DNA of 21,156 nucleotides, from the IMG/VR virus record IMGVR_UViG_3300017824_000068, positions 1 to 21,156 of that record, one strand, 5' to 3'. The translations under genes were made by a program, and so were the position numbers. This DNA is from a virus. The first letter of the stretch is position 1; each line of letters opens with the position of its first letter. A model generated the notes under the pieces. It made no database searches and was not told the origin of the DNA. It saw only the letters and a list, made by a program, of their open reading frames with translations. Of the stretch, positions 521 to 16,773 are shown piece after piece.

Positions 521-555
521 TAATCACGAATCCAATTAAAACTAGTTTTTACGAA

Positions 556-563
556 GATAAATA
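556..563 (+). promoter_or_regulatory. Late promoter -10 element (GATAAATA)
   Basis: GATAAATA differs from the T4 late consensus TATAAATA only at the first base. The expected start of transcription is near 569, leaving a leader of about 44 nt to the gp26-like gene, with GGAG at 604-607. AATTAAAAC at 534-542 resembles the upstream element of the other two late promoters in this window but sits 3 nt closer. The element overlaps, face to face, a minus-strand copy at 585-592. Confidence 0.65.
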
Positions 564-584: not shown

Positions 585-592
585 TATTTATC
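585..592 (-). promoter_or_regulatory. Late promoter -10 element on minus strand (GATAAATA)
   Basis: The plus-strand sequence TATTTATC reads GATAAATA on the minus strand. The expected transcript starts near 579 and gives a leader of about 59 nt to the partial gene starting at 520. No ATTAAAAC-type upstream element is seen on this strand. It is only 22 bp from the plus-strand -10 at 556-563 and points toward it. Confidence 0.5.
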
Positions 593-612: not shown

Positions 613-1506
613 ATGAGTGATACCAACACACAAAATACAGCACAAAATCCGCTGAAAGGATTTTTTAGAAACCCAGGATTATATATTTCTTTACCCAGTG
701 GAGGAGCATTTTATGAACCTGGCACAGTTAAATTTGACAGGGGCGAAGAATTAGCAGTTTATCCTATGACAGCACAGGACGAAATGATAACAAGAAGTCC
801 AGATGCATTGCTCAACGGAGATGCTGTATACAAAGTTATTGCTAGTTGTGTTCCAGGCATTTTACAGCCAATGGATTTAACAGCCAAAGATGCTCAGGCA
901 CTTATGATTGCTATTAGATGCACCACTTATGGCGAAGACCAAGAAATTGACCAAACTTGTCCGGAGTGTAGAGCAGAAAGCAAATACAATATGAATTTGC
1001 GTGATGTTATAGCAAACATTGAACCGTTTAAAGACAACCACGAAGTCAAAACAGCAAACGGTTTAAGTATTGTGCTAACACCAATCAGTTACGATTCAAC
1101 ACTTGCTACTAGTAGATACACATTCGAAAATGCATCTATTTTAGCCAGTATGGCGAATGTAGCAGATGAAGATGCTGTCACACAAACAGAAAGAATGGAA
1201 ACATTCAGAAATGCTTTTGCCAAAATGGCAAACTTAAATTTAAAAATTATGCTGGATAGTATTAAGTCAATTACAATTAAATCTGCAGAGCAAGGCTCAC
1301 AAGACACAGTTGTCACAGACGATAAGCATATTACAGAATTCCTAAACAACTGCGATGCTAAGACCAGTAAGCAAATAGAAGAAGCAATAGCAGAATATAA
1401 CAGTACAATGAGTGCCGAAACTTTATCTGCTGTATGCGGAGAGTGTGGACACGAATATGAAACACCATTGGAGTTCGATCCTGTAAGTTTTTTCACAGAG
1501 TCCTAA
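613..1506 (+). CDS. 26: gp26-like baseplate/tail-assembly protein, zero-frame product
   Basis: A 297-residue protein resembling the T4 gp26 family of baseplate hub proteins in its N-terminal region (GLYISLPSGGAFY, residues 22-34) and overall layout. The start at 613 is preferred over an in-frame ATG at 508 because GGAG lies 5 nt before it, and because 508 would overlap the divergent gene and sit upstream of the late promoter. It carries two CxxC pairs (C116/C119 and C275/C278) that could bind one metal ion as a zinc ribbon. T4 gp26 is shorter (about 208 residues). The last codons contain T TTT TTC, and the TAA stop lies inside a 9-bp stem, so a fraction of ribosomes should shift to -1 and read on to 1736. 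By analogy with lambda G/GT, the short product and the longer fusion may together act as tail-assembly chaperones. The gp26 call is by recognition, not by search. Confidence 0.75.
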   Translation: MSDTNTQNTAQNPLKGFFRNPGLYISLPSGGAFYEPGTVKFDRGEELAVYPMTAQDEMITRSPDALLNGDAVYKVIASCVPGILQPMDLTAKDAQALMIAIRCTTYGEDQEIDQTCPECRAESKYNMNLRDVIANIEPFKDNHEVKTANGLSIVLTPISYDSTLATSRYTFENASILASMANVADEDAVTQTERMETFRNAFAKMANLNLKIMLDSIKSITIKSAEQGSQDTVVTDDKHITEFLNNCDAKTSKQIEEAIAEYNSTMSAETLSAVCGECGHEYETPLEFDPVSFFTES

Positions 1507-4428: not shown

Positions 4429-5442
4429 TTAAATTTCTATATCGTTGTAAATGTCTATCAGCATTTGTCTGTTAATTGTATTGCTTTCTACAGTTTCTAA
4501 TTGTTGTAACACAATTTGATTCACAGTTTCAAAATGAATATCTTCTTCTACATATTCTTCTGATTCTTCTTTTGCAGGTATAAGACTAAGTTCTCTTACC
4601 CCAAATTGTTTACTAAATGCTTCTTTGATAAATGTTGCTTCTTCATAACTGATAGGCACATCTATTTTTACTCTTGCATAAGTGTTTTCATTTAGTAATG
4701 AATCTTTCTCATCTAACAGTTGCTTTAGTCCACAACTTACATATCTAGGACAATCGGGCCAGTTTACAAACACAGGCTCTTCGCCCCATTCTAAAAACAT
4801 TGCACCACGTTCATTGTCAAATACATCTGCATAATTGTGTGGGAAAGCATTGCCTATATAATGTATGTTGTTTTTGTATTGACGTTTGTGAAAATGTCCA
4901 CTAAACACATACTCAGGACCTTCTAAATGTTCTGCTTTTATACCACCGTGGTCTGGCATCTCTACCATTGCATTCATTTTAAAGTACGGTAATTCAAAAT
5001 GACCAAACATATACTTAACTTGCATTTTTGCAACTTTTTTATGTTCATCGCCTACAAGCCAAGGAATAATAGCACAGTCTCCTTGTTCCATTATCTCATC
5101 TACCATAACAAAGTTAGGCAAGTCTCTGGCAAACTCCATACTGTTGAGTTCACGTTTGTCTCTGTAAAATAAATCGTGATTGCCTGTTATAAAATATACA
5201 GTCTCAAATGCGTCATTAAGTTTCTTTAAATCTTTCCAACTTGCATTTAGTGTTGCTACGTTTACACTTGCACGTTGATGATGCCAGTCACCTAAAAACA
5301 AACAGGTCTCTGCTCCTCTGGCGTGAGCCTCGGCAATAAACCAGTCTATAAATTTATTACAGTCTCGTAGGTGTACACCACTATTTGACTTCAAGCCGTA
5401 GTGTATATCTGTGAATACTGCGGCGTGTTTAAATAGATTCAT
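4429..5442 (-). CDS. 47: gp47 recombination endonuclease subunit (Mre11/SbcD-like)
   Basis: A 337-residue metallophosphoesterase nuclease, the catalytic partner of gp46. The five phosphoesterase motifs are in order: DIH (12-14), GDWHH (51-55), GNHD (87-90), GHFE (147-150) and SGHFHKRQ (181-188), which supply the two-metal site. The length equals the T4 family norm (about 339). The start overlaps the end of the gp55-like gene by 14 nt, and its stop is one base before gp46, so 55, 47 and 46 are translated as a coupled block, as in the T4 gene neighbourhood. An acidic stretch near residues 290-305 precedes the C-terminal gp46-binding part. Confidence 0.97.
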   Translation of the reverse strand: MNLFKHAAVFTDIHYGLKSNSGVHLRDCNKFIDWFIAEAHARGAETCLFLGDWHHQRASVNVATLNASWKDLKKLNDAFETVYFITGNHDLFYRDKRELNSMEFARDLPNFVMVDEIMEQGDCAIIPWLVGDEHKKVAKMQVKYMFGHFELPYFKMNAMVEMPDHGGIKAEHLEGPEYVFSGHFHKRQYKNNIHYIGNAFPHNYADVFDNERGAMFLEWGEEPVFVNWPDCPRYVSCGLKQLLDEKDSLLNENTYARVKIDVPISYEEATFIKEAFSKQFGVRELSLIPAKEESEEYVEEDIHFETVNQIVLQQLETVESNTINRQMLIDIYNDIEI

Positions 5443-6289
5443 CTAAATTGGTATTTTCCTGCTTTGCTAATTCTCTGTTTGCTTTAACTTCTTCTTCGTG
5501 TTTGATTTGTCTTGTGAAACTTGGCAACTGCCCTGCTTCGATAAGTAAATCATCTCTGATGTTTTGATTACGTTTTTCAATATTCAAAACCCTTGTAAAA
5601 CTATTAGTAATTGCGGCAGTATAATAAGCAAATGGATTATCCGATTTTGCTTCATTAAACTGTAAACCAATTTGTGCTAATTGAACTAATGCCTGCCCTC
5701 TCATTTCGTCAACGTAAGTGTATCCTCTCCAGTTGGCTCTTTGACTGTAACGTTCGACTAACTTCAAAAACATATGACCTAACTTGGGAGTAATAGTTCC
5801 TTTTGTTAAATCAAACTTACCACTCTTAGGACCACCGTTCCAATGACTTCTTGCAACTTCAATAAGTTCGTCATCTTTAAAGGCATAATGTTTAAATGGT
5901 AAAAAGTTTAGTTTTACTTTTGTTTCTGCAATGTTCTTAGGATTGTTTTTCCTTCCTGGTTCATCAGGTATGTGGTCAAAATCCATAACTCTAAAAGTTA
6001 ATTCTTCCAAAGCAAAACTATCAGGGTCAACAATAAATTCTTTTTGTCTAGGTTTCTTGTTTGCTGGGCCACTGTATTCTGCTACTGCGGCTTTATAGTT
6101 TACTTCTTTAAGTTTTTGTGATTTATTGATTCTTGCAGTTTGGATTGCGTTATCATCAATCTCATCTACGTGATTCACAATAACGTCAAAATCATAGTGG
6201 TTTTGTGATTTAACCCAACAAAACGACATTTTGCTTTTGTGAATCTCTAATAAGATATCTTTATTATTAAGATAATTTGTTTTAGCCAT
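5429..6289 (-). CDS. 55: gp55-like sigma factor for late transcription
   Basis: A 286-residue protein starting MAKTNYLNNKD. The start at 6289 is chosen over an upstream in-frame ATG at 6316 because GGAGA lies 4-8 nt before it and because 6316 falls inside the -10 of the promoter. The C-terminal third has the sigma region 2 look of phage late sigma factors: NPFAYYTAAITNSFTRVLN followed by a basic stretch EKRNQNIRDD (about residues 217-246). It is longer than T4 gp55 (185) because of an added N-terminal part, as in marine relatives. In T4, gp55 with gp33 and the gp45 clamp directs host RNA polymerase to late promoters that have only a -10 element. Synteny with 47 and 46 supports the call. It probably reads the GATAAATA elements described here. 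Confidence 0.8.
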   Translation of the reverse strand: MAKTNYLNNKDILLEIHKSKMSFCWVKSQNHYDFDVIVNHVDEIDDNAIQTARINKSQKLKEVNYKAAVAEYSGPANKKPRQKEFIVDPDSFALEELTFRVMDFDHIPDEPGRKNNPKNIAETKVKLNFLPFKHYAFKDDELIEVARSHWNGGPKSGKFDLTKGTITPKLGHMFLKLVERYSQRANWRGYTYVDEMRGQALVQLAQIGLQFNEAKSDNPFAYYTAAITNSFTRVLNIEKRNQNIRDDLLIEAGQLPSFTRQIKHEEEVKANRELAKQENTNLDESI

Positions 6290-6366: not shown

Positions 6367-6399
6367 TATTAAAACGTGTTTTATTGATAACGATAAATA
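6367..6399 (+). promoter_or_regulatory. Late promoter with upstream element for baseplate operon
   Basis: GATAAATA at 6392-6399 is the late -10 element; the start is expected near 6405, giving a 15-nt leader that contains AGGAG (6409-6413) before the ATG at 6420. TATTAAAACGTGTT at 6367-6380 lies 11 nt upstream and recurs identically, at the same spacing, before gp25 (16322-16335). The early promoter for the gp55-like gene is 23 bp away, pointing the other way. Confidence 0.75.
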
Positions 6400-6419
6400 C
6401 TGTTTATTAGGAGAACTTA

Positions 6420-7223
6420 ATGGCAGACCAACAAACAGTTATTACAAATCAAGTAGGAGACAGACGTCTTAGTCCTACTGATTGGCGAGCAAAAATAGGT
6501 CCGTACAAAAAAGCAGACTTTGACCAAATATTTGGTCCTAACTTGAAAAACAAAGAAATGAGACAGATCCTAGGTCACGGCGAAGGAGAAGAATCAGGAA
6601 ATAGAAATGATACACTATTAGCACCACTTAAAGAAATAGGCGGCATCATATATCCATATACTCCTACAATACTTGTGACAGGACAAGCAAACTATAATGA
6701 AATGACGTTTACTCATTATAACTATCCTATATACAGTTTTATGCACAGCACACCGCCTGTGTTCACAGTGAGTGGACCGTTTACAGCAAATAATGTAAAT
6801 GAGGCAAGATATTTATTAGCAGTTTTAAACTTTTTAAAAATAGCAACAAAGGCTCAGAACGGAAGAGGAGCAATGAACACAGGATTTAGAGTGCCTCCTG
6901 TGTTAGCATTTAGTTACCTAGGCCCAAATGGTTATGACAAAGTTCCGGTTGTTGTTAGAACTTATTCTTATCAGTTAAGAGACGATGTGGATTATGTACC
7001 AGTCGATACTCAAGACTATTTTGCAACTAAGGCAATATATAAAGAAGAAGCAGACAATCTATTTTTACATCAACGAGATGGTTCAGATAACTTTACAACT
7101 TATGTGCCGAGTAGTGTTGATATATTAATAGATTTAGCACCACAGTATAATCCTGCAGAATTGAGAAAAAGGTTTGACTTAGATCTGATGACTCAAGGTT
7201 CATTAGGAGGTAAGTATACATAA
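6420..7223 (+). CDS. 48: Baseplate tail tube cap, gp48-like
   Basis: A 267-residue protein likely to sit between baseplate and tail tube. The middle (VFTVSGPFTANNVNEARYLL, 124-143) and the end (a segment starting YVPSSVDILIDLAPQYNP, then RKRFDLD and MTQGSLGG) resemble gp48-type tube-cap proteins of marine T4-like phages; VFTWDL in T4 gp48 occupies the comparable place. It is shorter than T4 gp48 (364). The alternative is gp54, the tube initiator, since both share a tail-tube fold. It is first in a late operon, has a strong AGGAG, and its stop overlaps the next start by one base (TAATG). Confidence 0.6.
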   Translation: MADQQTVITNQVGDRRLSPTDWRAKIGPYKKADFDQIFGPNLKNKEMRQILGHGEGEESGNRNDTLLAPLKEIGGIIYPYTPTILVTGQANYNEMTFTHYNYPIYSFMHSTPPVFTVSGPFTANNVNEARYLLAVLNFLKIATKAQNGRGAMNTGFRVPPVLAFSYLGPNGYDKVPVVVRTYSYQLRDDVDYVPVDTQDYFATKAIYKEEADNLFLHQRDGSDNFTTYVPSSVDILIDLAPQYNPAELRKRFDLDLMTQGSLGGKYT

Positions 7224-7519
7224 TGTCAGCAACCAAAAACAGTTTTGTTAAAAATGCAAAAGAAAGAGACTTTTATTTAGATATAAATTATTTAAATCTC
7301 AAAGGATTCAAACCATCTGTAACAGACGTTACTATTACAATAGACAAAAGAACAGAAAATAGACCAGACTTACTTGCTCACGAATTATATGCTGATTCGA
7401 ATCTATGGTGGGTGTTTACATTAAGAAACCCAGACCTTTTAAAAGACCCAGTTGGAGATATGGTGGCTGGTTTAAAAATTAAGGTACCTACTTTAGAAAG
7501 AGTACAAGAAAGGTTATAA
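7223..7519 (+). CDS. 53: Baseplate wedge protein gp53
   Basis: A 98-residue protein with the gp53 core: ENRPDLLAHELYADSNLWW (residues 45-63), then RNPDLLKDPVGD and a C-terminal KIKVPTLERV. The pattern 'RPDLLA-x-LY-x(4)-LWW', then 'NP-x-DP', is typical of gp53, which joins wedges into the hexagonal baseplate. T4 gp53 is about twice as long, so this is the compact form seen in marine relatives. Both ends are coupled to neighbours through one-base TAATG overlaps. Its place just before hub genes and gp5 matches the T4 order 53-5. Confidence 0.8.
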   Translation: MSATKNSFVKNAKERDFYLDINYLNLKGFKPSVTDVTITIDKRTENRPDLLAHELYADSNLWWVFTLRNPDLLKDPVGDMVAGLKIKVPTLERVQERL

Positions 7520-10518
7520 TGTCATTAGATAATTATTCAGGTCCAAGTAGAGAATGTCCGTTTGTACAAGGCGGCTTTATACCTTCTAATGTCCTAGACG
7601 AATATTCCACAGTTACTTACAATTTAAAGTTGTATATGTTAGGCTTAAAGTCTATTGTTAGTGGAGCAGGTGAAGGTGGGTTAGGACTAATTAGGGACGA
7701 AGATAATGAATTAATTATTGCTCAAACAGGCGTAACAGATATTAAAATAGATGATTTAGTTATTCAATCTGTAATAGGAGGAGGAGGTGAAGCAGGATCG
7801 TCTAACAGTATAGGCACAGACATAACTTTTAAACTTACTCAGCCTTTACGTTGCGATTTAATGGAAAGACTTTTAGCGGCTCAAGAAGCCTTAAATTTAA
7901 AACCCTTCCAAGAGTTTCCATTATTTTTAGAAATAGGATTTACAGGAGGGCAACAATTTCTTAATAGTAATGGAGAGAAATATGAAGCACCAACTAAAAT
8001 TTTAAGAATTTTATTTTCAGATTTTGATTTGCTTATTCAAAGTAATTCAACAGAATATCAATTTAGATGTGTAGGGTATGAAGACGGTTTATTTAAAGCG
8101 GCAAAAGACCGAAGAGAATCTTTGAATAAATTTCAAATAGTTTATCAAACAATAGGAGAAGGGTTAAGACACTTAGGAGATGCTTTTACTAGATTAAATC
8201 GAGATGCATATAGTGATAAAATCAGAGAAACCAAGGAAGTTTTAAACGAACCGCCAGGTCAAACACCATATGATATACACGAATTTGACACTTCGAAGAT
8301 TTATCCAGAGGCAGGCGAATCAGCAGTTAGCCAAGAAGAACAAAGAATTTTACAAAATTGGCCCTCATCTCTTTTGAATTTAGAAAACAAAATCGAAACT
8401 TACAAATATTCTCAAAATGTTTTGGTAGATATGAGCGAGTTGGATTTGGAAAAACAAGAAAGCCTTACAATAGCACCTACGGCTGATCCTAATCCAGGAT
8501 TTAATTATCTTGTGTCTAGTTTCCCAGCACAGACAGATATTGTTACAGCCGCACAGAAGTTGGTGCTAAAAGATCCTCAATTTAACGACAAAACCGTAAG
8601 AGTAGAAAGAGGCAAAAGCATTTCAGATATTAAAAAAGCAATACCAAAAGATTTTGATTTTTCACAAGGAGCAGTATGGTGGTTCGATGTACACACTGAT
8701 GTAGCACCAATTGGATTAAATTATGTACACAATAGAGTTGCTTATAAGTACACACATAAAATTTCCTTAAGAAGAGTTTATGCATCTATGTTTTTAAATA
8801 CAGACGAAATGCTTAAAATACCTGAGGAAGGAAAGTTAAACATTCAAAAAGAACTTAATGCCATAACACATAGATATTATCCATATATTTTTACAGGTCA
8901 AAACGACCAAATATTAAATGCTAGAATATATGATAATTCTGGTAGTGCGATGATGTTGACATTGCCTTCCGGTGGTGTAGATTTAAAATCTAGAATCAGG
9001 CAAAGTGAATTAGCAAAAAAAGATGAAAATGAAATTGCCGCAGAATTTGAACAAAAATATCTTGCTGGTGTTTTAAGCCAATTAGACGTTGCAAAGTATG
9101 TTACTAAATTACAAACACAAGTAGAAGATGTAATTGTAAAAGGTGCTCAAGCAACTGTACAAGATTTTCAACGTGTTGTTACGTTAGCAAGAACAAAAGG
9201 TTTCAGTGCGTTATTAGGTGGCGATATTGATTTTGTAAACACTAGAATAGATCCAAAACTATTAGGAAGAATTAGTCCAATCGGAGAAGCAATTACAAAA
9301 TTTGACGAACGTCTGAACAAAGCAAAGTCGTTGGTAGAAGATATTAGAAACCTAGAAGATACAATTAGTGATGAATTTGGACAAGTAGGCGAAGATATAA
9401 TGAAAGACTTCTTGGCAAAAGCCACAGATGTTGAAAATATATTTAAACAAAAGATTGAAGAATTTACAGGTCCGTTGAGGTCAGGTCTACTTGCTCCTAT
9501 ACAAGAACAATACGATGCATTTAAAAATGATATGCAAGGCATATTAACAGACAATGGACCATTATTAGGAAACTTGGGAATCGAAGATGAATTCCAAGAA
9601 TTTTTCGATAATGTGTTTGACCCCGTAGACAGTTTACTTTCTGAAATAAACAGCACATTAGATAGCCTTACAGACTTTGATGGGTTATTAGGAGATATGA
9701 TAGAAGGGTTTGCAGATCCTAGAGTTATAGAATTAAGTGAAGATGACATTCCAGTAAAATATTTAGATGATATTTTAGAAGTGGGTGGGTTTGACAAAAT
9801 TAGAGATATGAATGACTTACCTAAAGGCGTTACAACAGGTCCTGATGTAGACAAAGTGGTTGCAGATGAAGACAAAGTAGGAGACCTTAGTATAACTAAA
9901 AATGCTATGGAGTTATTATATCACCAAAACACATATCCAGCATTCTTAAAAACAGTAGAATTAGAAATAAAAGGAGACCCATATTGGTTACCAGGCACTA
10001 TTAAAACTTCAGGCCCTAAACAAGAAGTACCAGGAATGACAAAGGTTACAGAAGCACTACTCAATAAAAATACATATTTGCCTAGTTATTTTGAAAGGTA
10101 TTTCATCTTTAGTTTTGCAACACCAGACTATGATGTAGCATTAGGAAAAGCATCAACGCCAAACCACGGAAGGTATACAGGTTATTATATTGTAACAAAT
10201 GTAGAGCATAATTTTACAGGAGGATTATACACTTGTAGAATTACTGGATCGAAGAATGAAAGGATAGCACACCCTAAGAAGTTAAATAGTGAAGTCGAAG
10301 AAAATAATTCAGATGAAGGACCAATTGAATTCGAAAGGCCTCTAAACATCACAATGCCTATATATTATCAAGAAGGCGGTGAATACGACGGACAATATTT
10401 AGACGCCGCAGGGGAATTTTGGACAACAGAAGAAATACAAGAATGGCAAAGCAGACAAAATTCAGATGATAGTAATAACAATGCAGAAAATCCAGTTGAC
10501 ACAGGCGGAGATGGCTAA
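7519..10518 (+). CDS. Large baseplate hub-like structural protein
   Basis: A 999-residue protein between gp53 and gp5. The N-terminal part (VLDEYSTVTYNLKLYML, 25-41; a segment around TDITFKLTQPLRCDLMERLL; FPLFLEIGFTGG) looks like the beta-rich hub domains of the gp27/gpD type. The C-terminal end (YYIVTNVEHNFTGGLYTCRI then a SKNERI motif) is typical of tail hub proteins that hold the spike. Between them lies a long charged, coiled-coil-like region (about residues 490-740). T4 gp27 is 391 residues, so this would be a hub protein with a large central insertion. Adjacency to the gp5 spike agrees. Exact homology is inferred; 'large virion structural protein' is the safe call. Confidence 0.6.
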   Translation: MSLDNYSGPSRECPFVQGGFIPSNVLDEYSTVTYNLKLYMLGLKSIVSGAGEGGLGLIRDEDNELIIAQTGVTDIKIDDLVIQSVIGGGGEAGSSNSIGTDITFKLTQPLRCDLMERLLAAQEALNLKPFQEFPLFLEIGFTGGQQFLNSNGEKYEAPTKILRILFSDFDLLIQSNSTEYQFRCVGYEDGLFKAAKDRRESLNKFQIVYQTIGEGLRHLGDAFTRLNRDAYSDKIRETKEVLNEPPGQTPYDIHEFDTSKIYPEAGESAVSQEEQRILQNWPSSLLNLENKIETYKYSQNVLVDMSELDLEKQESLTIAPTADPNPGFNYLVSSFPAQTDIVTAAQKLVLKDPQFNDKTVRVERGKSISDIKKAIPKDFDFSQGAVWWFDVHTDVAPIGLNYVHNRVAYKYTHKISLRRVYASMFLNTDEMLKIPEEGKLNIQKELNAITHRYYPYIFTGQNDQILNARIYDNSGSAMMLTLPSGGVDLKSRIRQSELAKKDENEIAAEFEQKYLAGVLSQLDVAKYVTKLQTQVEDVIVKGAQATVQDFQRVVTLARTKGFSALLGGDIDFVNTRIDPKLLGRISPIGEAITKFDERLNKAKSLVEDIRNLEDTISDEFGQVGEDIMKDFLAKATDVENIFKQKIEEFTGPLRSGLLAPIQEQYDAFKNDMQGILTDNGPLLGNLGIEDEFQEFFDNVFDPVDSLLSEINSTLDSLTDFDGLLGDMIEGFADPRVIELSEDDIPVKYLDDILEVGGFDKIRDMNDLPKGVTTGPDVDKVVADEDKVGDLSITKNAMELLYHQNTYPAFLKTVELEIKGDPYWLPGTIKTSGPKQEVPGMTKVTEALLNKNTYLPSYFERYFIFSFATPDYDVALGKASTPNHGRYTGYYIVTNVEHNFTGGLYTCRITGSKNERIAHPKKLNSEVEENNSDEGPIEFERPLNITMPIYYQEGGEYDGQYLDAAGEFWTTEEIQEWQSRQNSDDSNNNAENPVDTGGDG

Positions 10519-12530
10519 TGGCAAAAATAACTAGAACAAATAGACAAACTCCTTCAGAAAGAGTAGCCAACAAAGATGAAAAATTTTATGGAGTCTACAA
10601 ATGCGAAGTTGTTAATACATCAGATCCTAACAGAGATGGCAGACTGTTTGTAAAAAATCAATTAGTAGGCGATAGTTTTTGGGTAACCTGGACAACACCT
10701 TTTGGTGGAGTTGCTAATAACAATCCAGTTGAAGGCGGAACAGAATATGCAGAAACACAAACCAGTTATGGTATGTGGATGGTGCCACCTGATATAGGAA
10801 ATGAAGTTATTGTAGCATTTGAAGGAGGAGATATTAATAGAGGATTTTGCCTAGGATGTGTGCAACCTTCACAAATGAATCATATGGTACCTGGTATCCC
10901 TGCAGGTGTTACCCACGACGGAAATGTACTACCAGTCACAGAAAAAGACAAAACGTCTAATGAAAAACAAGATACAGCATACAAGTACAGAACAGGCTCT
11001 AATAAATTAGATGCAGACGGAGGCGCTCACGCGGCGCACGATCCTTTAACGGCGGTGCTAGAAGCACAAGGCATTAGTACTGATTGGCCAAGGGGTCTAA
11101 CAAGTAGTGGTGCTAGAAGAGAATCGCCCAGTCAGGTATTTGGTATTTTGACTCCAGGTCCACTGAAGTCAGTATCAGGAACAAGAGATGGCGGACACCA
11201 ATTTATTTTAGATGACCATCCAGACGACAGCCAAATAAGATTGCGTACAAAAAATGGTATGCAAATTTTATTACACGACACAACAGATACAATCTTTATT
11301 ATAAACAAATTTGGCACAGGTTGGATCGAGATAGATGGACAAGGAAATATGGATTTCTTTGCAGACGGAAATTTTAGTGTTAGAGCAAGGGGAGATGTAA
11401 ATTTAAGAGGCGATAATAATGTAAACATAGAAGCAGGTGGCGATGTTAATATTAAAGCAAGAAATGATAATCCTGTACCTAGCGAAATAGATGGATTAAG
11501 TTTAAGTATAGAAGGCGGCAAGCCTAAAGTAGGACTTAAACTTTCTAGCAAATATGGAATTATTCACCCTGCAGATAACCTAGGTAGAGGAGACCCAATT
11601 TGGGAAACACTACAATTAGGCAGAATGCACAGTAAAGGTGGTCGAGTAAATATACACGGCGTAAACGGAATGAATTTGAGAAACGATTACGGTGGTGTTA
11701 GAATTAGCAGTAAACAAGGCAAGGTAGGGTTAAGAGGCAAGCCTGTAAATATTCATTCTTATGGTGTAATGGGAATTAAGTCTAGCATACCGTTGCCTGA
11801 TCCTTCTTTACAAAGCCAATTGGAAAATGCCTATGGGGCAATAGAGGGTGCTATAGGAGATGCGGCATCAGGATTACTAAATGGCGAAGGACTTAATTTA
11901 TCTAACCCATTAGAAGCATTTATTCCTAGAGGAGGTTTACAAGTAGACATAGTAGGAGATATTGTTATTAATAACGGTATTACTCCTGGTACTGTGAAAG
12001 ATGCTGTACTGGATGGCGATTTAGAAGAAGCGGCTACATCAGCCGCCGCGGCACAGTTTATACCAGGTAACTTCTATATGAACAGTATGGGATTGATGTT
12101 ACAAACAGCACCTTTAGGTATTATGTTGAATACTGCCCCTATACCAACAATGAAGTCTGCTAGTAGTGTAGGAAATGCTAGAAAGCCAAGTTCATCAAGA
12201 AAAACAAACACAATAACAACTCAAAGCAGTATAGGACTAAGCCTTGGAGGAGCAGTAAACATCAAACGTGTTGCACAACAAGGTGCAGGTATAGGCTTAG
12301 ACAGCATCAAAGAAAGAGTTATAGGCACTATAGCAGAAGGTTTAGTAGGTGGCGGCTCTCCGTATGCATCTACACCGTCTGTATTACCAGAAATGCAAGG
12401 AGCACCAGACAGTATTATTTCAAGATGGAATAGTTACCAGCCTAGTCCAAGTAGAAAAGATTTAGGTTCTAATCCTTTATTTAAAGCAGTAAGTGGGTTC
12501 TTGACCAAAGTTACAGGCGGAGATGGGTAA
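10518..12530 (+). CDS. 5: gp5-like baseplate spike protein, no lysozyme domain seen
   Basis: A 670-residue central-spike protein. Residues about 20-130 form the OB-fold domain of the gp5/VgrG family (FYGVYKCEVVNTSDPNRDGR, then MWMVPPDIGNEVIVAFEGGD and GFCLGCV). About 200-320 resembles the VgrG/gp5 stalk: FGILTPGPLKSVSG, GHQFILDDHPDDSQIRLRT, then 8-residue repeats GDVNLRGD / NNVNIEAG / GDVNIKAR that build a triple-stranded beta-helix. T4 gp5 has a lysozyme domain between OB and helix; none is recognisable here. The C-terminal 350 residues are Gly/Ala/Ser-rich and not assigned. The start overlaps the previous stop by one base (TAATG). Confidence 0.85.
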   Translation: MAKITRTNRQTPSERVANKDEKFYGVYKCEVVNTSDPNRDGRLFVKNQLVGDSFWVTWTTPFGGVANNNPVEGGTEYAETQTSYGMWMVPPDIGNEVIVAFEGGDINRGFCLGCVQPSQMNHMVPGIPAGVTHDGNVLPVTEKDKTSNEKQDTAYKYRTGSNKLDADGGAHAAHDPLTAVLEAQGISTDWPRGLTSSGARRESPSQVFGILTPGPLKSVSGTRDGGHQFILDDHPDDSQIRLRTKNGMQILLHDTTDTIFIINKFGTGWIEIDGQGNMDFFADGNFSVRARGDVNLRGDNNVNIEAGGDVNIKARNDNPVPSEIDGLSLSIEGGKPKVGLKLSSKYGIIHPADNLGRGDPIWETLQLGRMHSKGGRVNIHGVNGMNLRNDYGGVRISSKQGKVGLRGKPVNIHSYGVMGIKSSIPLPDPSLQSQLENAYGAIEGAIGDAASGLLNGEGLNLSNPLEAFIPRGGLQVDIVGDIVINNGITPGTVKDAVLDGDLEEAATSAAAAQFIPGNFYMNSMGLMLQTAPLGIMLNTAPIPTMKSASSVGNARKPSSSRKTNTITTQSSIGLSLGGAVNIKRVAQQGAGIGLDSIKERVIGTIAEGLVGGGSPYASTPSVLPEMQGAPDSIISRWNSYQPSPSRKDLGSNPLFKAVSGFLTKVTGGDG

Positions 12531-13309
12531 TGACTACTTATATCGGACAACTGGATGATTTAGATGTAAAGCCGGCTCCATATCAAACTCCCAAGACAGT
12601 ATTTGCAGGAATTGGATACACAGCAGAAGGAGTTCCTCAATATAAAAAAATATCAGTAAAACCAGAAACGTTTTATGATCCTGTAACACTTACACTAAAT
12701 GACGAAGGCGATGAAGTGTTAGACAATATGTTTGATTTTTTTCCACTGGATCTAGCAAATAGAGGTGTAGTTGGATTTTCACACAAATTAACAGAAAGTG
12801 AAAAAAGAGAAAAAGTTATTGCTTACAATAAAAATAGTTTCCTGGATCCTTCATCGAATAAAATACAAGAACTTATTTTAAAATATAAAGATATATTAGT
12901 GCCCACTTCGACATTTGGTCTTATAAATTTTGATTTGAATAATATACCACAGAGTTTTATAAAAATTAAAAAAGAAGACATAACATTGGTAAGTTTAATT
13001 TTACCTATAATGCCAACACCATCTCGCGAAATATTTCAATTAGATAAAAACAAAGCACAACAAACAGTACAAAAAAATGTTAAAACCCTTTTAACACAAA
13101 GAATGTTTAACAGTTTAGTTGGTTGTGCAATGTTACTTACAGAATCAGATTTTGTTGCCAACCAAGGCATACAAAGTTTAAACAAAGGAATATACAATGA
13201 GTTTCCTACTTTACTACTTAGAGAAGTAGATGAAATAGTAAATTCTCAAGAATATACTTATTTTTATAACCTAATGAAATATTATACTTTTGTAAATTCA
13301 GCAAGTTGA
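12530..13309 (+). CDS. Conserved-looking baseplate-operon protein, unknown function
   Basis: A 259-residue protein that I do not recognise. The N-terminus (MTTYIGQLDDLDVKPAPYQT) is extended and polar, the middle is Lys-rich with VTLTLNDEGDEVLDNMFDF, and the C-terminal third appears helical. There is no signal peptide or membrane segment. It is the last gene of the late operon, coupled to gp5 by a one-base overlap, which points to a baseplate or hub accessory role. Its 3' end overlaps the convergent coiled-coil gene by 28 bp, so transcripts of the two strands are antisense to each other there. No terminator is visible. Confidence 0.75.
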   Translation: MTTYIGQLDDLDVKPAPYQTPKTVFAGIGYTAEGVPQYKKISVKPETFYDPVTLTLNDEGDEVLDNMFDFFPLDLANRGVVGFSHKLTESEKREKVIAYNKNSFLDPSSNKIQELILKYKDILVPTSTFGLINFDLNNIPQSFIKIKKEDITLVSLILPIMPTPSREIFQLDKNKAQQTVQKNVKTLLTQRMFNSLVGCAMLLTESDFVANQGIQSLNKGIYNEFPTLLLREVDEIVNSQEYTYFYNLMKYYTFVNSAS

Positions 13310-13515
13310 TTTTTTAAAATATTCAACTCGCTTTGTAAGTCAGCCGCTTTTACCAATGCTCTGTACTTTTGCTCTTGCTCTTCTGCAACAGACTTTTCTA
13401 ACATTTCAATTCGACTTCTTAGATTATTGCACTCGTTGTTTTTTTCAACAAGCATAACTCTAAGTTCTTCTTCGAGTGTATTGTTAGTATATTTTTTTAT
13501 AATTGATTCGGTCAT
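13282..13515 (-). CDS. Small coiled-coil protein
   Basis: A 77-residue protein, almost wholly charged heptad-like sequence from EEELRVMLVEKNNECNN to the end, predicted as one long coiled coil. There is no recognisable domain. Its start overlaps the stop of the upstream gene by one base (TAATG), so it is coupled to it. It is the last gene of the minus-strand cassette and converges on, and overlaps by 28 bp, the late baseplate operon. Confidence 0.65.
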   Translation of the reverse strand: MTESIIKKYTNNTLEEELRVMLVEKNNECNNLRSRIEMLEKSVAEEQEQKYRALVKAADLQSELNILKNQLAEFTKV

Positions 13516-13775
13516 TATCTTGCTTGTGAGACAATTTGTTTGATTTGTACTAATTCGGTGATATCTTCAAACCTCTTAGTCCTATAATTGTTTAATTCAA
13601 CTATAGCATATTTTTTAGTTTTTGTATCATATACACCTACTGCTTTAATAAGACCTGTGTCCGGATCTTTATCTACACATTCTGCAACACGTCTATCTGC
13701 AGATTTATTTGGAAGTGTTGACACAATTTTATTGTATGTATCGATGATACGCCTATCGAGTTTACTGTATGACAA
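13515..13775 (-). CDS. Small protein with TTG start, unknown function
   Basis: An 86-residue protein starting at a TTG (13773-13775) with AAAGGAG 7 nt upstream; no ATG fits better, since the reading frame begins SYSKLDRRI directly after it. It includes DKDPDTGLIKAVGVYDTKTKKYAIVELNNY, cut here as DPDTGLIKAVGVYD then KKYAIVELNNY: a short beta-rich part, with predicted helices at both ends. I do not recognise the family. The ribosome binding site overlaps the stop of the preceding 51-residue gene, suggesting coupled translation. Confidence 0.65.
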   Translation of the reverse strand: MSYSKLDRRIIDTYNKIVSTLPNKSADRRVAECVDKDPDTGLIKAVGVYDTKTKKYAIVELNNYRTKRFEDITELVQIKQIVSQAR

Positions 13776-13787
13776 AAGGTTTCTCCT

Positions 13788-13943
13788 TTAGATTTTAGTC
13801 ATTTCTACTAAGTAGCCTAATGCAAGAAGTTCATCTGTTCTTTGATGTGCTTCTTGCCCCTTATAAATTCTCTTATCAGTAATCCAATTTGCATTGTTTC
13901 CTTTAACTGAGAACTTGTCAATATATTTAATTTTATATTGCAT
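13788..13943 (-). CDS. Very small protein (51 residues), unknown function
   Basis: An ATG at 13941-13943 opens a 51-residue frame (MQYKIKYIDKFSV...LGYLVEMTKI) ending in TAA at 13788-13790. It fills the gap between two co-directional genes, ends inside the ribosome binding site of the next one, and begins 22 nt after the previous stop. The composition (Lys/Tyr/Ile, mixed strand and helix) is like a real small phage protein. It lacks a clear Shine-Dalgarno sequence, so translation may depend on the upstream gene. Confidence 0.6.
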   Translation of the reverse strand: MQYKIKYIDKFSVKGNNANWITDKRIYKGQEAHQRTDELLALGYLVEMTKI

Positions 13944-13964
13944 AAAGGTACAATAAATGTGGCA

Positions 13965-14495
13965 TTATGATGCCTGTTTGACTTCCTTCATTAGTAATGA
14001 ACTTTCTGAAGGAAAAACTTCTTTGAATCCCATATCAGCAACTTGAAAAAACTTAGTGCCGTGAATAGTTCTTTCTGCAACAATGTCGCCTACTGAAAGT
14101 GAGTGCATATCTCTGTATGTAATTACTTCACCATCTTTACGAGTGATTGTTTTCCATTTGTAATCCAAAACGTGTTTATCAAATACAATATCTTCTTCGG
14201 TTTCTTCATCATAGTAATAACCGTTAAGTATCTTAAATACTTCTTCTAGGTCGTTTACTAGATATTCTTCCATTTGACCCCGCATCAATCCTGCATTTTC
14301 AGTGACCTTACACACTTTGGTGTAATGTGCAAAATCTTCAGGCTGAAATCCTTCTTTTCTAAAACTCATAGAATTTCTCATATGAGCCTCGTAAATTGGG
14401 AATTTTTCTTCAGCACCTTTATGACCCCTGTCATTGCTGTTGACATAGTCTCTTACTTCTTTGTTGATTTTGATTTGATAAATTTCGTAAAACAT
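13965..14495 (-). CDS. Hypothetical protein, marine-phage type
   Basis: A 176-residue acidic protein starting MFYEIYQIKINKEV, with VNSNDRGHKGAEEKFPIYEAH (cut: NDRGHKGAEEKFP) near residues 19-38 and HYTKVCKV at about 58-65. I have an impression of similar unassigned proteins in marine T4-like phages, but can name no function. The C-terminal part (DMHSLSVGDIVA, then FFQVADMGFKEV) looks like a small beta-barrel. AGGAG lies 5 nt before the ATG, and a perfect host-type promoter (14527-14555) lies just upstream, so it heads its own early transcription unit with the small genes that follow. Confidence 0.7.
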   Translation of the reverse strand: MFYEIYQIKINKEVRDYVNSNDRGHKGAEEKFPIYEAHMRNSMSFRKEGFQPEDFAHYTKVCKVTENAGLMRGQMEEYLVNDLEEVFKILNGYYYDEETEEDIVFDKHVLDYKWKTITRKDGEVITYRDMHSLSVGDIVAERTIHGTKFFQVADMGFKEVFPSESSLLMKEVKQAS

Positions 14496-14526
14496 AAAAA
14501 CTCCTACCTTTTTAAATTATACATAT

Positions 14527-14555
14527 ATTATACTAAATTCTAAGGTATGTGTCAA
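14527..14555 (-). promoter_or_regulatory. Host sigma-70-type early promoter inside accessory cassette
   Basis: Minus-strand TTGACA (14550-14555), a 17-nt spacer and TATAAT (14527-14532) form a perfect consensus, as at 6316-6344. Transcription should start near 14520, about 25 nt before the ATG at 14495. It separates 13282-14495 from the upstream peptidase gene, which ends 4 nt before the -35. Confidence 0.9.
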
Positions 14556-14558
14556 CCC

Positions 14559-14966
14559 CTACCAAAACATTTCTAACAGTTTTTCTTCTAAACCGTATGC
14601 TTCTATTTCCCAGGGTTTCTTTCTGTATGGAGTTTTTGAGTGGTCTTGTCTACACCACGTTTCTGTGCTAGGGTGTAAATCTCCCCTTATAAATTGTTTG
14701 GCGTGTACTAATTCGTGTGCTAGGTTAAGTGCTATTTCGTGTGCAGGGAGTTGACGTTTGCCGTGTTTCCTGCATATTTCTATTTCTGCAATCTTTTTAT
14801 CGCCCCAACATAACCCTAAATGGCCGCCATCGCAATGTGTAACTACACTTATATCCACAGTTACATCACGTCTAATTCTAGGCATAAGATGATGTATTAC
14901 ATCATCAGCAAATTGGGTCAGTCTTTTCTTTTGTTTAACTCTACCTTCAATGTTTAAAATTATCAT
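14559..14966 (-). CDS. Zincin-like metallopeptidase (SprT-like)
   Basis: A 135-residue protein with the zinc-binding and catalytic motif HELVH (residues 84-88, in LAHELVHAKQF) and a downstream Glu in PWEIEAY (E120 or E122) that could be the third zinc ligand. This is the minimal zincin core, as in SprT-like or small phage peptidases; cysteines at 53, 65 and 105 do not form an obvious zinc ribbon. The N-terminal 70 residues form the expected helix-sheet lead-in. The target is unknown. The start overlaps the end of the SGNH gene by 20 nt, so the two are co-translated. A cytoplasmic role (no signal peptide) is likely. Confidence 0.7.
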   Translation of the reverse strand: MIILNIEGRVKQKKRLTQFADDVIHHLMPRIRRDVTVDISVVTHCDGGHLGLCWGDKKIAEIEICRKHGKRQLPAHEIALNLAHELVHAKQFIRGDLHPSTETWCRQDHSKTPYRKKPWEIEAYGLEEKLLEMFW

Positions 14967-15726
14967 TATTTTTTATCCATTCGCCTAAAGTTTTTGCTAT
15001 GTATCTATGTCCTTTTGGACTTGGATGATGCCAAGAATCAGGTTGAGACCATAAGCCTTCGTACCCTTTCTTTTTATCCTCGTGCAACACATTACCACTT
15101 AGTGGGTCGTTATTACCAGCCAAACCCAATAAGTTTGTTAATGTAGAATCATTATAGCACCAGAAATTTTCTCTGTCAACAGTAAAATGTCTACTTAAAA
15201 TGTGTTCTGACGCATTTTCTATGTCTATGTCTTTTGTAACATCTACTAGGGCATTGTTTTGACACACTTTAATACCTTTGCTTTTGCAAACTTCTTGTAT
15301 TAAAATTATTTGGTCAAGATGTTGCCTAACAATATCTTCTTCATAAAGTAAAGATATTTCTCTACTTGCAGTCAACATAGTTTTTAATCTGCTTGGTAAA
15401 GTGAGAATATCAAAATTACTCATTTGATTTATCGATCCCATTGTCCAGTTAGGATCGGCATAATAAAACCTGTGAGGATTACTCCAACTTATAATAACTA
15501 AGTCGTCTTTTTTAATATCTGGAAGTATTTTGAAAAAATGATTTACAATTTCTTGATTACCAAATCCACTTACAGCACAACTTTGGGAAGGACAGCCTAA
15601 TTCTTTTCCTATTATTCCTCCCCAGCCGATTGTGTCTCTTACATACTCTGGATCACCATCTACAATGGTTGTACCATACATAAAACTACACCCAAACCCC
15701 CAAATTTTATTAAAGTTCAATGCCAT
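14947..15726 (-). CDS. SGNH-hydrolase-like esterase
   Basis: A 259-residue protein starting MALNFNKIWGFGCS. The start at 15726 is preferred over an in-frame ATG at 15819 because the longer form would overlap the upstream gene by over 100 nt. SGNH blocks are visible: FGCS (block I, S14 as nucleophile, Cys in place of the usual Asp before it), SGFGNQ (block II Gly), SWSNPHR (block III Asn) and DSWHHPS (block V Asp and His). Such enzymes remove acyl groups from polysaccharides, lipids or other esters; in phages they may modify surface glycans. There is no signal peptide. It overlaps the stop of the nucleosidase-like gene by 17 nt. The substrate is unknown. Confidence 0.7.
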   Translation of the reverse strand: MALNFNKIWGFGCSFMYGTTIVDGDPEYVRDTIGWGGIIGKELGCPSQSCAVSGFGNQEIVNHFFKILPDIKKDDLVIISWSNPHRFYYADPNWTMGSINQMSNFDILTLPSRLKTMLTASREISLLYEEDIVRQHLDQIILIQEVCKSKGIKVCQNNALVDVTKDIDIENASEHILSRHFTVDRENFWCYNDSTLTNLLGLAGNNDPLSGNVLHEDKKKGYEGLWSQPDSWHHPSPKGHRYIAKTLGEWIKNNDNFKH

Positions 15727-16267
15727 AATCTGTTTTGAATATAGTTTTAAATATATCTTGCCCTGTATTAAAGTTCTCTTTCCATTGAGCAGACTGGTCG
15801 GCACCTCCCACAATATCACTAATCCACTTGTATGATGTAAAATGTTTGTTCATATTATGACAAACTTTTGCTAATGCGTATGCCTCCATATCAACACAGT
15901 CTACTTCTATAGCAGGTTTTGTTAATTGAAATTGGTCAAACGTCATACAGGTTTTGCCATCTACAAAATCTTCATTGAAATCAAACTGTTGAATATCTTC
16001 GTATGGCGTATGCCCTAACGGAACTCCTAAAGGTCTACAATCTATGTCTCCTTGCAAGAATTTAGTACATTTAAGTAACCCTCTAAAGTCAGGATTTATA
16101 CCTCCAGCACTTCCGTAGTTTACTACGTTTTCTATGTCTGGATTATCGCATAGATATTTCGTGAGTTTCCAGGCGGCATTTACTTTGCCTATACCTGTGT
16201 ATAATGTGTGTTTGTATTCGATGTCCTCTAATTCGGACTTTAATGCAACTACCAATAATGTGTTCAT
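15710..16267 (-). CDS. MTA/SAH nucleosidase-like protein (phosphorylase superfamily)
   Basis: A 185-residue protein of the purine nucleoside phosphorylase/MTAN fold. It shows the N-terminal strand VALKSELED with E12 (the catalytic Glu12 position of bacterial MTAN), TGIGKVNAA (24-32), VVNYGSAGGI (48-57), VDMEAYALA (125-133, the ribose-binding Met-Glu) and a motif ISDIVGGAD (149-157) with the Asp that protonates the purine. Such enzymes cleave methylthioadenosine or S-adenosylhomocysteine, recycling methionine and relieving inhibition of methyltransferases. It is shorter than the usual 230 residues, mainly in the middle. It is first in the cassette, has no clear Shine-Dalgarno sequence, and only a weak TATAAA-type -10 is seen upstream on its strand. 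Substrate specificity is not visible. Confidence 0.75.
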   Translation of the reverse strand: MNTLLVVALKSELEDIEYKHTLYTGIGKVNAAWKLTKYLCDNPDIENVVNYGSAGGINPDFRGLLKCTKFLQGDIDCRPLGVPLGHTPYEDIQQFDFNEDFVDGKTCMTFDQFQLTKPAIEVDCVDMEAYALAKVCHNMNKHFTSYKWISDIVGGADQSAQWKENFNTGQDIFKTIFKTDYGIEL

Positions 16268-16321
16268 ACTTGTACTTATCTACGACTAAAAAATAGATAT
16301 TTTTATACAGGAAAATGTGCG

Positions 16322-16354
16322 TATTAAAACGTGTTATAATTAATTAGATAAATA
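16322..16354 (+). promoter_or_regulatory. Late promoter with upstream element for gp25-gp6
   Basis: TATTAAAACGTGTT (16322-16335), 11 nt, then GATAAATA (16347-16354), identical in both boxes and spacing to 6367-6399. By T4 geometry transcription would start at about 16360, the A of the gp25 ATG. An overlapping TGTTATAAT (16332-16340) looks like an extended -10 for host sigma-70 and would start about 13 nt earlier. Confidence 0.75.
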
Positions 16355-16359
16355 TCAGT

Positions 16360-16773
16360 ATGGCAACATTTAAAGGTTTTAGTACAGTAGATAGAATTGG
16401 ACCTCCTTTTAATTTAGAAGATTTAGAATTAGTCAAGCAAGACATTTTAAATCAACTTAAAACATCAAAAGGGGAAAGAGTTATGCTACCAGAGTTTGGT
16501 AGTATTATACCTGATTTGTTAATGGAGCCTTTAACAGAAGCAACCATTGGTTTTGTTAAAGATGACGTTACAGAAATTGTAAACGCAGACCCCAGAGTAA
16601 ATTTACTTAATTTAAATGTTTCCGCAATGGACAACACATTAAGATGTGAAATTCATTTGGAATATAAACCAGACCTTACAGAAGATATACTTGTAGCAGA
16701 ATTTGAAGCAACTACAGGCGTATCACTGAATAGTGGTGGAATTGAATCCACTCAAGGCACAACAACGTATTAG
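16360..16773 (+). CDS. 25: Baseplate wedge protein gp25
   Basis: A 137-residue protein of the gp25/GpW-lysozyme-like wedge family, found in all contractile injection systems, where it nucleates the sheath and joins the gp6 ring. The conserved core GERVMLPEFGS (38-48) matches the family's E-P-x-[FY]-G motif, and the length equals T4 gp25 (132). There is no Shine-Dalgarno sequence before the ATG, and the late -10 ends only 5 nt upstream, implying a leaderless mRNA. gp6 starts 8 nt after its stop. Confidence 0.95.
   Translation: MATFKGFSTVDRIGPPFNLEDLELVKQDILNQLKTSKGERVMLPEFGSIIPDLLMEPLTEATIGFVKDDVTEIVNADPRVNLLNLNVSAMDNTLRCEIHLEYKPDLTEDILVAEFEATTGVSLNSGGIESTQGTTTY

Follow-up and report, generated by a model that had tools for sequence, protein, structure and literature searches.

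The locus described here raises the question whether late promoters of a T4-like phage can carry a second conserved element upstream of their -10 box, and what might recognise it. The window, i.e. the whole stretch of 21,156 bp that was analysed (IMG/VR virus record IMGVR_UViG_3300017824_000068), displayed a T4-like gene order: hub gene, gp46, gp47, gp55, a virion structural gene starting at 6420 (below, the 6420 gene), gp53-like, gp5-like, gene 25 and gene 6, the names of genes 53 and 6 being assigned by synteny with phage PA5oct. According to gp55, the closest isolates were PA5oct-type Pseudomonas jumbo phages (46.7% identity), which shared the local gene order; no near DNA relative was found among isolated phages. 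The lineage comprises T4-like phages that are widespread and uncultured. The gp55 of the window was assigned to the family by profiles phrog_12791 (3e-80) and phrog_234 (1.7e-22). The features considered were as follows.

535 to 552, plus strand: third palindrome, ATTAAAAC-TA-GTTTTTAC, 21 nt before the GATAAATA of the hub gene (from the sequence; shift also seen in relatives)
556 to 563, plus strand: GATAAATA, late -10 box of the hub gene (from the sequence)
585 to 592, minus strand: GATAAATA opposite the 556 box, serving the leftward tape-measure-like gene (from the sequence and relatives)
613 to 1506, plus strand: baseplate hub gene, start at MSDTNTQ (T4_baseplate PF12322, phrog_150)
5429 to 6286, minus strand: gp55-like late sigma factor, with an apparent insert of ~125 residues after conserved segment 1 (phrog_12791/phrog_234; alignments, model)
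6368 to 6385, plus strand: 18-bp palindrome, ATTAAAAC-GT-GTTTTATT, 24 nt (start to start) before the GATAAATA of the 6420 gene (from the sequence; fixed offset in relatives)
6392 to 6399, plus strand: GATAAATA, late -10 box of the operon of the 6420 gene, gp53 and hub (late-box class known from T4)
6420 to 7223, plus strand: virion structural gene (phrog_12050), first in the baseplate hub operon (profile match)
16323 to 16340, plus strand: 18-bp palindrome, ATTAAAAC-GT-GTTATAAT, 24 nt before the GATAAATA of gene 25 (from the sequence and relatives)
16347 to 16354, plus strand: GATAAATA, late -10 box of gene 25 (from the sequence; ATG 13 nt after its G)
16360 to 16773, plus strand: gene 25, baseplate wedge subunit (phrog_43/phrog_261)

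The string TATTAAAACGTGTT was located, as the sequence-only reading had stated, at 6367-6380 and 16322-16335, each time 11 nt before GATAAATA (6392-6399 and 16347-16354), and no further copy was detected in the window with up to two mismatches. A weaker copy, AATTAAAACTAGTT, claimed before position 556, was real as well (534-547), its gap to GATAAATA being eight nt rather than 11. Taken alone, GATAAATA was not significantly frequent in the window (four seen, 1.75 expected by shuffling) while its pairing with the upstream box was significant. The two main copies had only this box and the -10 octamer in common; spacers and flanks differed, which rules out a recent duplication. The box at 585-592 displayed no palindrome in the window species; most relatives did (13/15 non-redundant).

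Non-redundant alignments revealed that the 14-nt string first noticed covers the left portion of an imperfect palindrome of 18 bp, ATTAAAAC-NN-GTTTTAAT, located at -24 to -7 counted from the G of GATAAATA. This corresponds to -37 to -20, with a centre at about -28.5, in T4 late numbering, where the late box conventionally spans -13 to -6 (PMC1524935). The consensus halves ATTAAAAC and GTTTTAAT were complementary at 8/8 positions and exact palindromes (ATTAAAACTAGTTTTAAT) were encountered among the copies. Counted from the G of GATAAATA, positions -24 to -17 and -14 to -7 had a high information content and positions 5' of -26 a low one; of the three main promoter classes, two displayed lower values in the 2-bp centre, and the six bases just 5' of GATAAATA were less conserved. 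Like a palindromic operator, the element thus comprised two complementary half-sites with a conserved centre spacing, the left half being best conserved. The -35-like element initially proposed was real, conserved and overlapping -35, but not one-sided, as the palindrome reaches -20.

Relatives' loci were gathered by gp55 similarity, without use of the motif, which yielded 80 loci. TTAAAAC (at most one mismatch) preceded 66 of 135 distinct GATAAATA sites by exactly 23 nt, start to start; other spacings were found zero to five times each. Control octamers (TATAAATA, AATAAATA, CATAAATA, GATAAATT, GATTAATA and six others) gave no comparable signal in the gp55-relative loci. When 171 GATAAATA sites were scored with a matrix, 75 displayed the palindrome at offset 24, eight at offset 21, three at offset 23 and two at offset 29. 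Conversely, 110 of 111 palindromes scoring at least 15 were in register with GATAAATA, and degenerate palindromes in the same register were found on a more distant contig (G002).

In an unbiased cross-gene test, the matrix was trained on promoters of one gene and applied to gp55-selected promoters of others, all shuffle controls ranging from 0.2 to 2.6%. A matrix trained on gene 25 recovered the element at 12 of 16 promoters of the 6420 gene, with the same offset, and at 13 of 15 tape-measure-like promoters (12 with the same offset, one shifted by one), against 0.4-0.5% in the corresponding shuffled controls; training on tape-measure-like promoters recovered 19 of 20 gene 25 promoters. None of 18 portal promoters was recovered. 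Together with the control octamers, this test ruled out a chance origin. Sorted by downstream gene, the box was present at 60/60 promoters of gene 25, 38/52 of the 6420 gene (at most one mismatch) and 20/25 of the tape-measure-like gene, fractions biased upward because some loci came from a motif scan. The absence of upstream conservation at other late genes, which according to the sequence-only reading would have reduced the two matches to duplication or chance, was thus not encountered at several late genes and did apply to a second class of them. Spacing was nearly fixed at non-orthologous late promoters, as had been suggested, and not fully so, the hub gene being shifted by three bp: its whole palindrome lay closer (offset 21) in the window and in relatives, although one relative (L167) displayed it at the usual spacing.

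The element was carried by the wedge gene (gene 25), the hub gene, the 6420 gene, the probable tape-measure gene and the phrog_11259 gene, and was lacking from portal and fibre genes, so that it characterises a subset of late promoters rather than late promoters generally. Four long contigs, G024 (122 kb), G031, G032 and G026, themselves chosen from the motif scan, displayed nine to 13 listed GATAAATA sites apiece, and on each contig four to six of these had the element. These preceded gene 25 and the 6420, tape-measure-like, hub and phrog_11259 genes, plus a 3,304-codon ORF in G032; the phrog_11259 and 3,304-codon ORF copies were weak and the hub copy of G026 was so degenerate that it could not be scored. 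No palindrome accompanied the portal, tail-fibre, gnd-like (identified by eye) and other GATAAATA sites, and the element was absent from about half of the late promoters within the same genomes. On the four contigs the strongest copies were situated in divergent regions. Weaker ones in the same register also separated co-directional genes (phrog_11259 gene), and the element is therefore not simply a divergent early-promoter device; these co-directional cases, like the register of 110 of the 111 strong sites with GATAAATA, also disfavoured a terminator.

Several other traits of these regions were observed. The structural regions of three of the contigs harbored giant ORFs of 5,900 codons (G031, 9794-27496; homologous to a large PA5oct ORF), 7,187 codons (G026, ~33-55 kb) and 6,778 codons (G024, 69678-90014). 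At the portal promoter (L156, L162, L175, L190 and others), GATAAATA was nested in the 17-bp spacer of a sigma70-type TTGACA-N17-TAATAT, and the portal gene appears, from its sequence, to have overlapping early and late promoters. The late promoters of the hub and tape-measure-like genes were face-to-face (535-592 in the window, and in relatives) with their -10 boxes ~20-30 nt apart, so that the predicted 5' leaders of both genes overlap. Towards gp55 in the divergent region, HATAAATA followed the palindrome at offset 29, and a TTGACA...TATAAT promoter came next (L155, L157, L161, L164, L170 and L141 near position 9,900; L193 near 6,787); a single palindrome may serve both directions. In 57 of 60 orthologous promoters (including the window, 16347-16362, L155, L156 and L160), the ATG of gene 25 was situated exactly 13 nt downstream of the first base of the late box. 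In HTVC008M this distance was also displayed by nine of the 17 ATGs lying within 40 nt of a late box, and in T4 by none. With T4 spacing, transcription would start at the A of this ATG, and leaderless late mRNAs are thus predicted.

Three candidate readers of the box had been put forward: host alpha subunits, a late co-activator or the long N-terminal part of gp55. UP elements, bound by alpha subunits, lie at about -40 to -60, and conservation ended here at about -37, which is why alpha subunits fit poorly. The long part of gp55 turned out not to be a plain extension. The N termini of T4, Syn9 and HTVC008M gp55 consist of a YVNNKELL-like segment, and this segment 1 (YNYVNNKELL in T4, TNYLNNKDIL here) was followed, before the sigma2-like part, by ~125 apparently inserted residues in gp55 of this lineage and of PA5oct, absent from T4 and Syn9; segment 1 and the insert were placed by manual reading, the automatic alignment having gapped segment 1 differently. 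An AlphaFold model built with 28 relatives (mean pLDDT 67, pTM 0.58) had block means of mostly 76-91 over residues 21-160 and below 50 in the sigma2 part, and presents the insert, with partial confidence, as an alpha/beta domain. Foldseek returned no match with E <0.001 for this model and VIA-align none with Z >=5, the latter mostly testing residues 223-285 and barely the insert.

These data bear on the view that the element is a true -35 element, in which the gp55 insert, or an equivalent of gp33 on the beta flap, would contact TTAAAAC (-36 to -30) and, secondarily, TTTAAT (-25 to -20). TTAAAAC does occupy the canonical -35 position, the left half is the better conserved one, and the insert with its partly confident fold is lacking from T4 and Syn9 gp55. 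However, PA5oct, which is like this lineage in gene order, GATAAATA box and long gp55, has the same insert and displayed no conserved element at its 27-28 GATAAATA sites, with at most one vestige-like site, before its phrog_11259 homologue. A -35 element is thus not found wherever the insert is, the insert alone is no explanation, and gp55 as reader of the box is disfavoured. Neither does a rigid one-sided contact agree with the symmetry and the 3-bp shift, nor a general -35 element with its absence from about half of the late promoters of the same genomes; the gp55 model had no PDB match, though the fold comparison barely tested the insert. We consider such a -35 element unlikely. The symmetry could also be mimicked by a component of the late polymerase that touches the DNA at two distinct places.

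The reading tentatively preferred is that the palindrome provides the half-sites for a sequence-specific regulator, which would most likely be a dimer encoded by the phage, at a tail and baseplate subset of late promoters. The symmetry of the site suggests a dimer, its preferred distance to the -10 box suggests a contact with the polymerase, and its restriction to a subset of late genes suggests a separate regulon. The putative dimer would bind the 18 bp at -37 to -20, immediately 5' of the gp55-type -10 box, and would touch the gp55-RNA polymerase, a contact that would account for the spacing. Its effect would be positive, a site-bound factor helping beside or instead of the non-specific sliding clamp. 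A fuller version, in which a phage activator at the palindrome switches on a tail and baseplate regulon via the gp55-polymerase as a second tier of late control, replacing the clamp partly or wholly, is regarded as a doubtful possibility. For a bound protein the shift at the hub gene would amount to about a third of a helix turn and would be awkward for a rigid activator contact; because of this shift, and because no convincing binder was found, confidence in the regulator falls short of one half.

That shift would be tolerable for steric blocking, and an operator at which a dimer on -37 to -20 blocks the gp55-polymerase, delaying or limiting low-copy tail and baseplate genes relative to capsid genes, was considered. 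The site coincides in part with the footprint expected of the polymerase, a repressor that covers the polymerase site could equally be served by near-fixed spacing, and the genes concerned encode wedge, hub and probable tape-measure proteins, parts of low copy number in T4, while portal and several fibre-like genes are without the site. Yet blocking needs no preferred distance and 75 of 88 matrix-scored copies, at unrelated genes, were at offset 24; owing to this spacing an activator is more likely than a repressor, and the operator is judged rather doubtful. Exploitation by the phage of a host transcription factor site seems quite improbable. The outer TTAA-N8-TTAA recalls the CtrA boxes (TTAA-N7-TTAA), and Sinorhizobium phage Phosso displayed three weakly similar sites, including one at gene 25 and one at the gene beside gp55; but the gap is eight and not seven, the inner AAAAC/GTTTT is conserved, unlike in CtrA boxes, and 110 of the 111 strong sites are on late promoters. 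Least credible by far is an absence of any regulatory meaning. Orthologous promoters are related by descent and the sequences are AT-rich, but mere shared ancestry or composition is contradicted by the cross-gene test against shuffles, by the negative control octamers and by flanks that vary beside conserved halves.

Returning to the putative regulator, HTH_3 proteins were absent from 14 records, and an incomplete Pfam/PHROGs scan of 71 proteins of the 122-kb relative listed 25 families, none of them a clear regulator. Two long contigs with several copies of the element encode a small protein of winged-helix type, HTH_39 (L207:6852-7115, on G024; 83288-83542 on G028). Its homologue was not found in PA5oct and was also present in HTVC008M, which has no element, and the protein is a weak candidate.

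Known systems resemble this arrangement in part. As in T4, an ATAAATA-type -10 box precedes structural genes and a phage-encoded gp55-family sigma gene lies beside 46/47. T4 late promoters, whose mechanism (gp55, gp33 and the gp45 sliding clamp) is reviewed in PMC2988020 and PMC7892883, show no conservation at -35 according to the same articles, in agreement with the statement of the sequence-only reading that they need only the -10 box. The tail and baseplate class departs from this description; the portal class is without a palindrome. In the T4 genome no upstream element was found at late boxes, and ten weak hits of the palindrome matrix were unrelated to GATAAATA. Whereas the T4 clamp is not bound to a specific site and gp55 carries the hydrophobic clamp-binding tail SPSLDFLYEAND (SLDFLYE), a conserved palindrome was found here and no counterpart of this tail was visible by eye at the gp55 C termini; phmmer detected no gp45 homologue in one partial contig. 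The present element would work like the MotA box of T4 middle promoters, a phage protein's DNA site whose centre is near -30 and which keeps a preferred distance to the -10 box. MotA boxes, however, are asymmetric and act with a sigma70 TATAAT and AsiA, whereas the element is palindromic and accompanies the late box GATAAATA. Phage Mu Mor and C are alike in being phage-encoded dimers that bind an inverted repeat and thereby activate one class of promoters. The Mor element has 16 bp (PMC4390567); Mor binding is centred at -43.5 on sigma70 promoters, in contrast to about -28.5 on gp55-type promoters here.

The late box of cyanophages and pelagiphages (Syn9, S-PM2, HTVC008M) is NATAAATA (PMC2984593), and no upstream palindrome was found at the late boxes of Syn9 and HTVC008M. 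Neither Phosso nor Vibrio phage 2.275.O displayed a clear element, the three best sites of Phosso being suggestive only. Comparative work on late promoters of T4-like phages and cyanophages describes the octamer alone in its accessible portions (PMC1524935, PMC2984593), and among the openly licensed papers searched none was found to describe an element of this kind.

In textbooks, late transcription of T4 exemplifies a single short box combined with a sliding clamp activator that binds no specific site. The palindrome described here looks like the landing site of a putative, probably phage-encoded regulator. A dedicated second element confined to some late promoters would, if true, imply that late genes are divisible into groups under separate control; the 18-bp palindrome would serve as a bait for fishing out the regulator and as a signature by which uncultured phages can be searched for late promoters of tail and baseplate genes.
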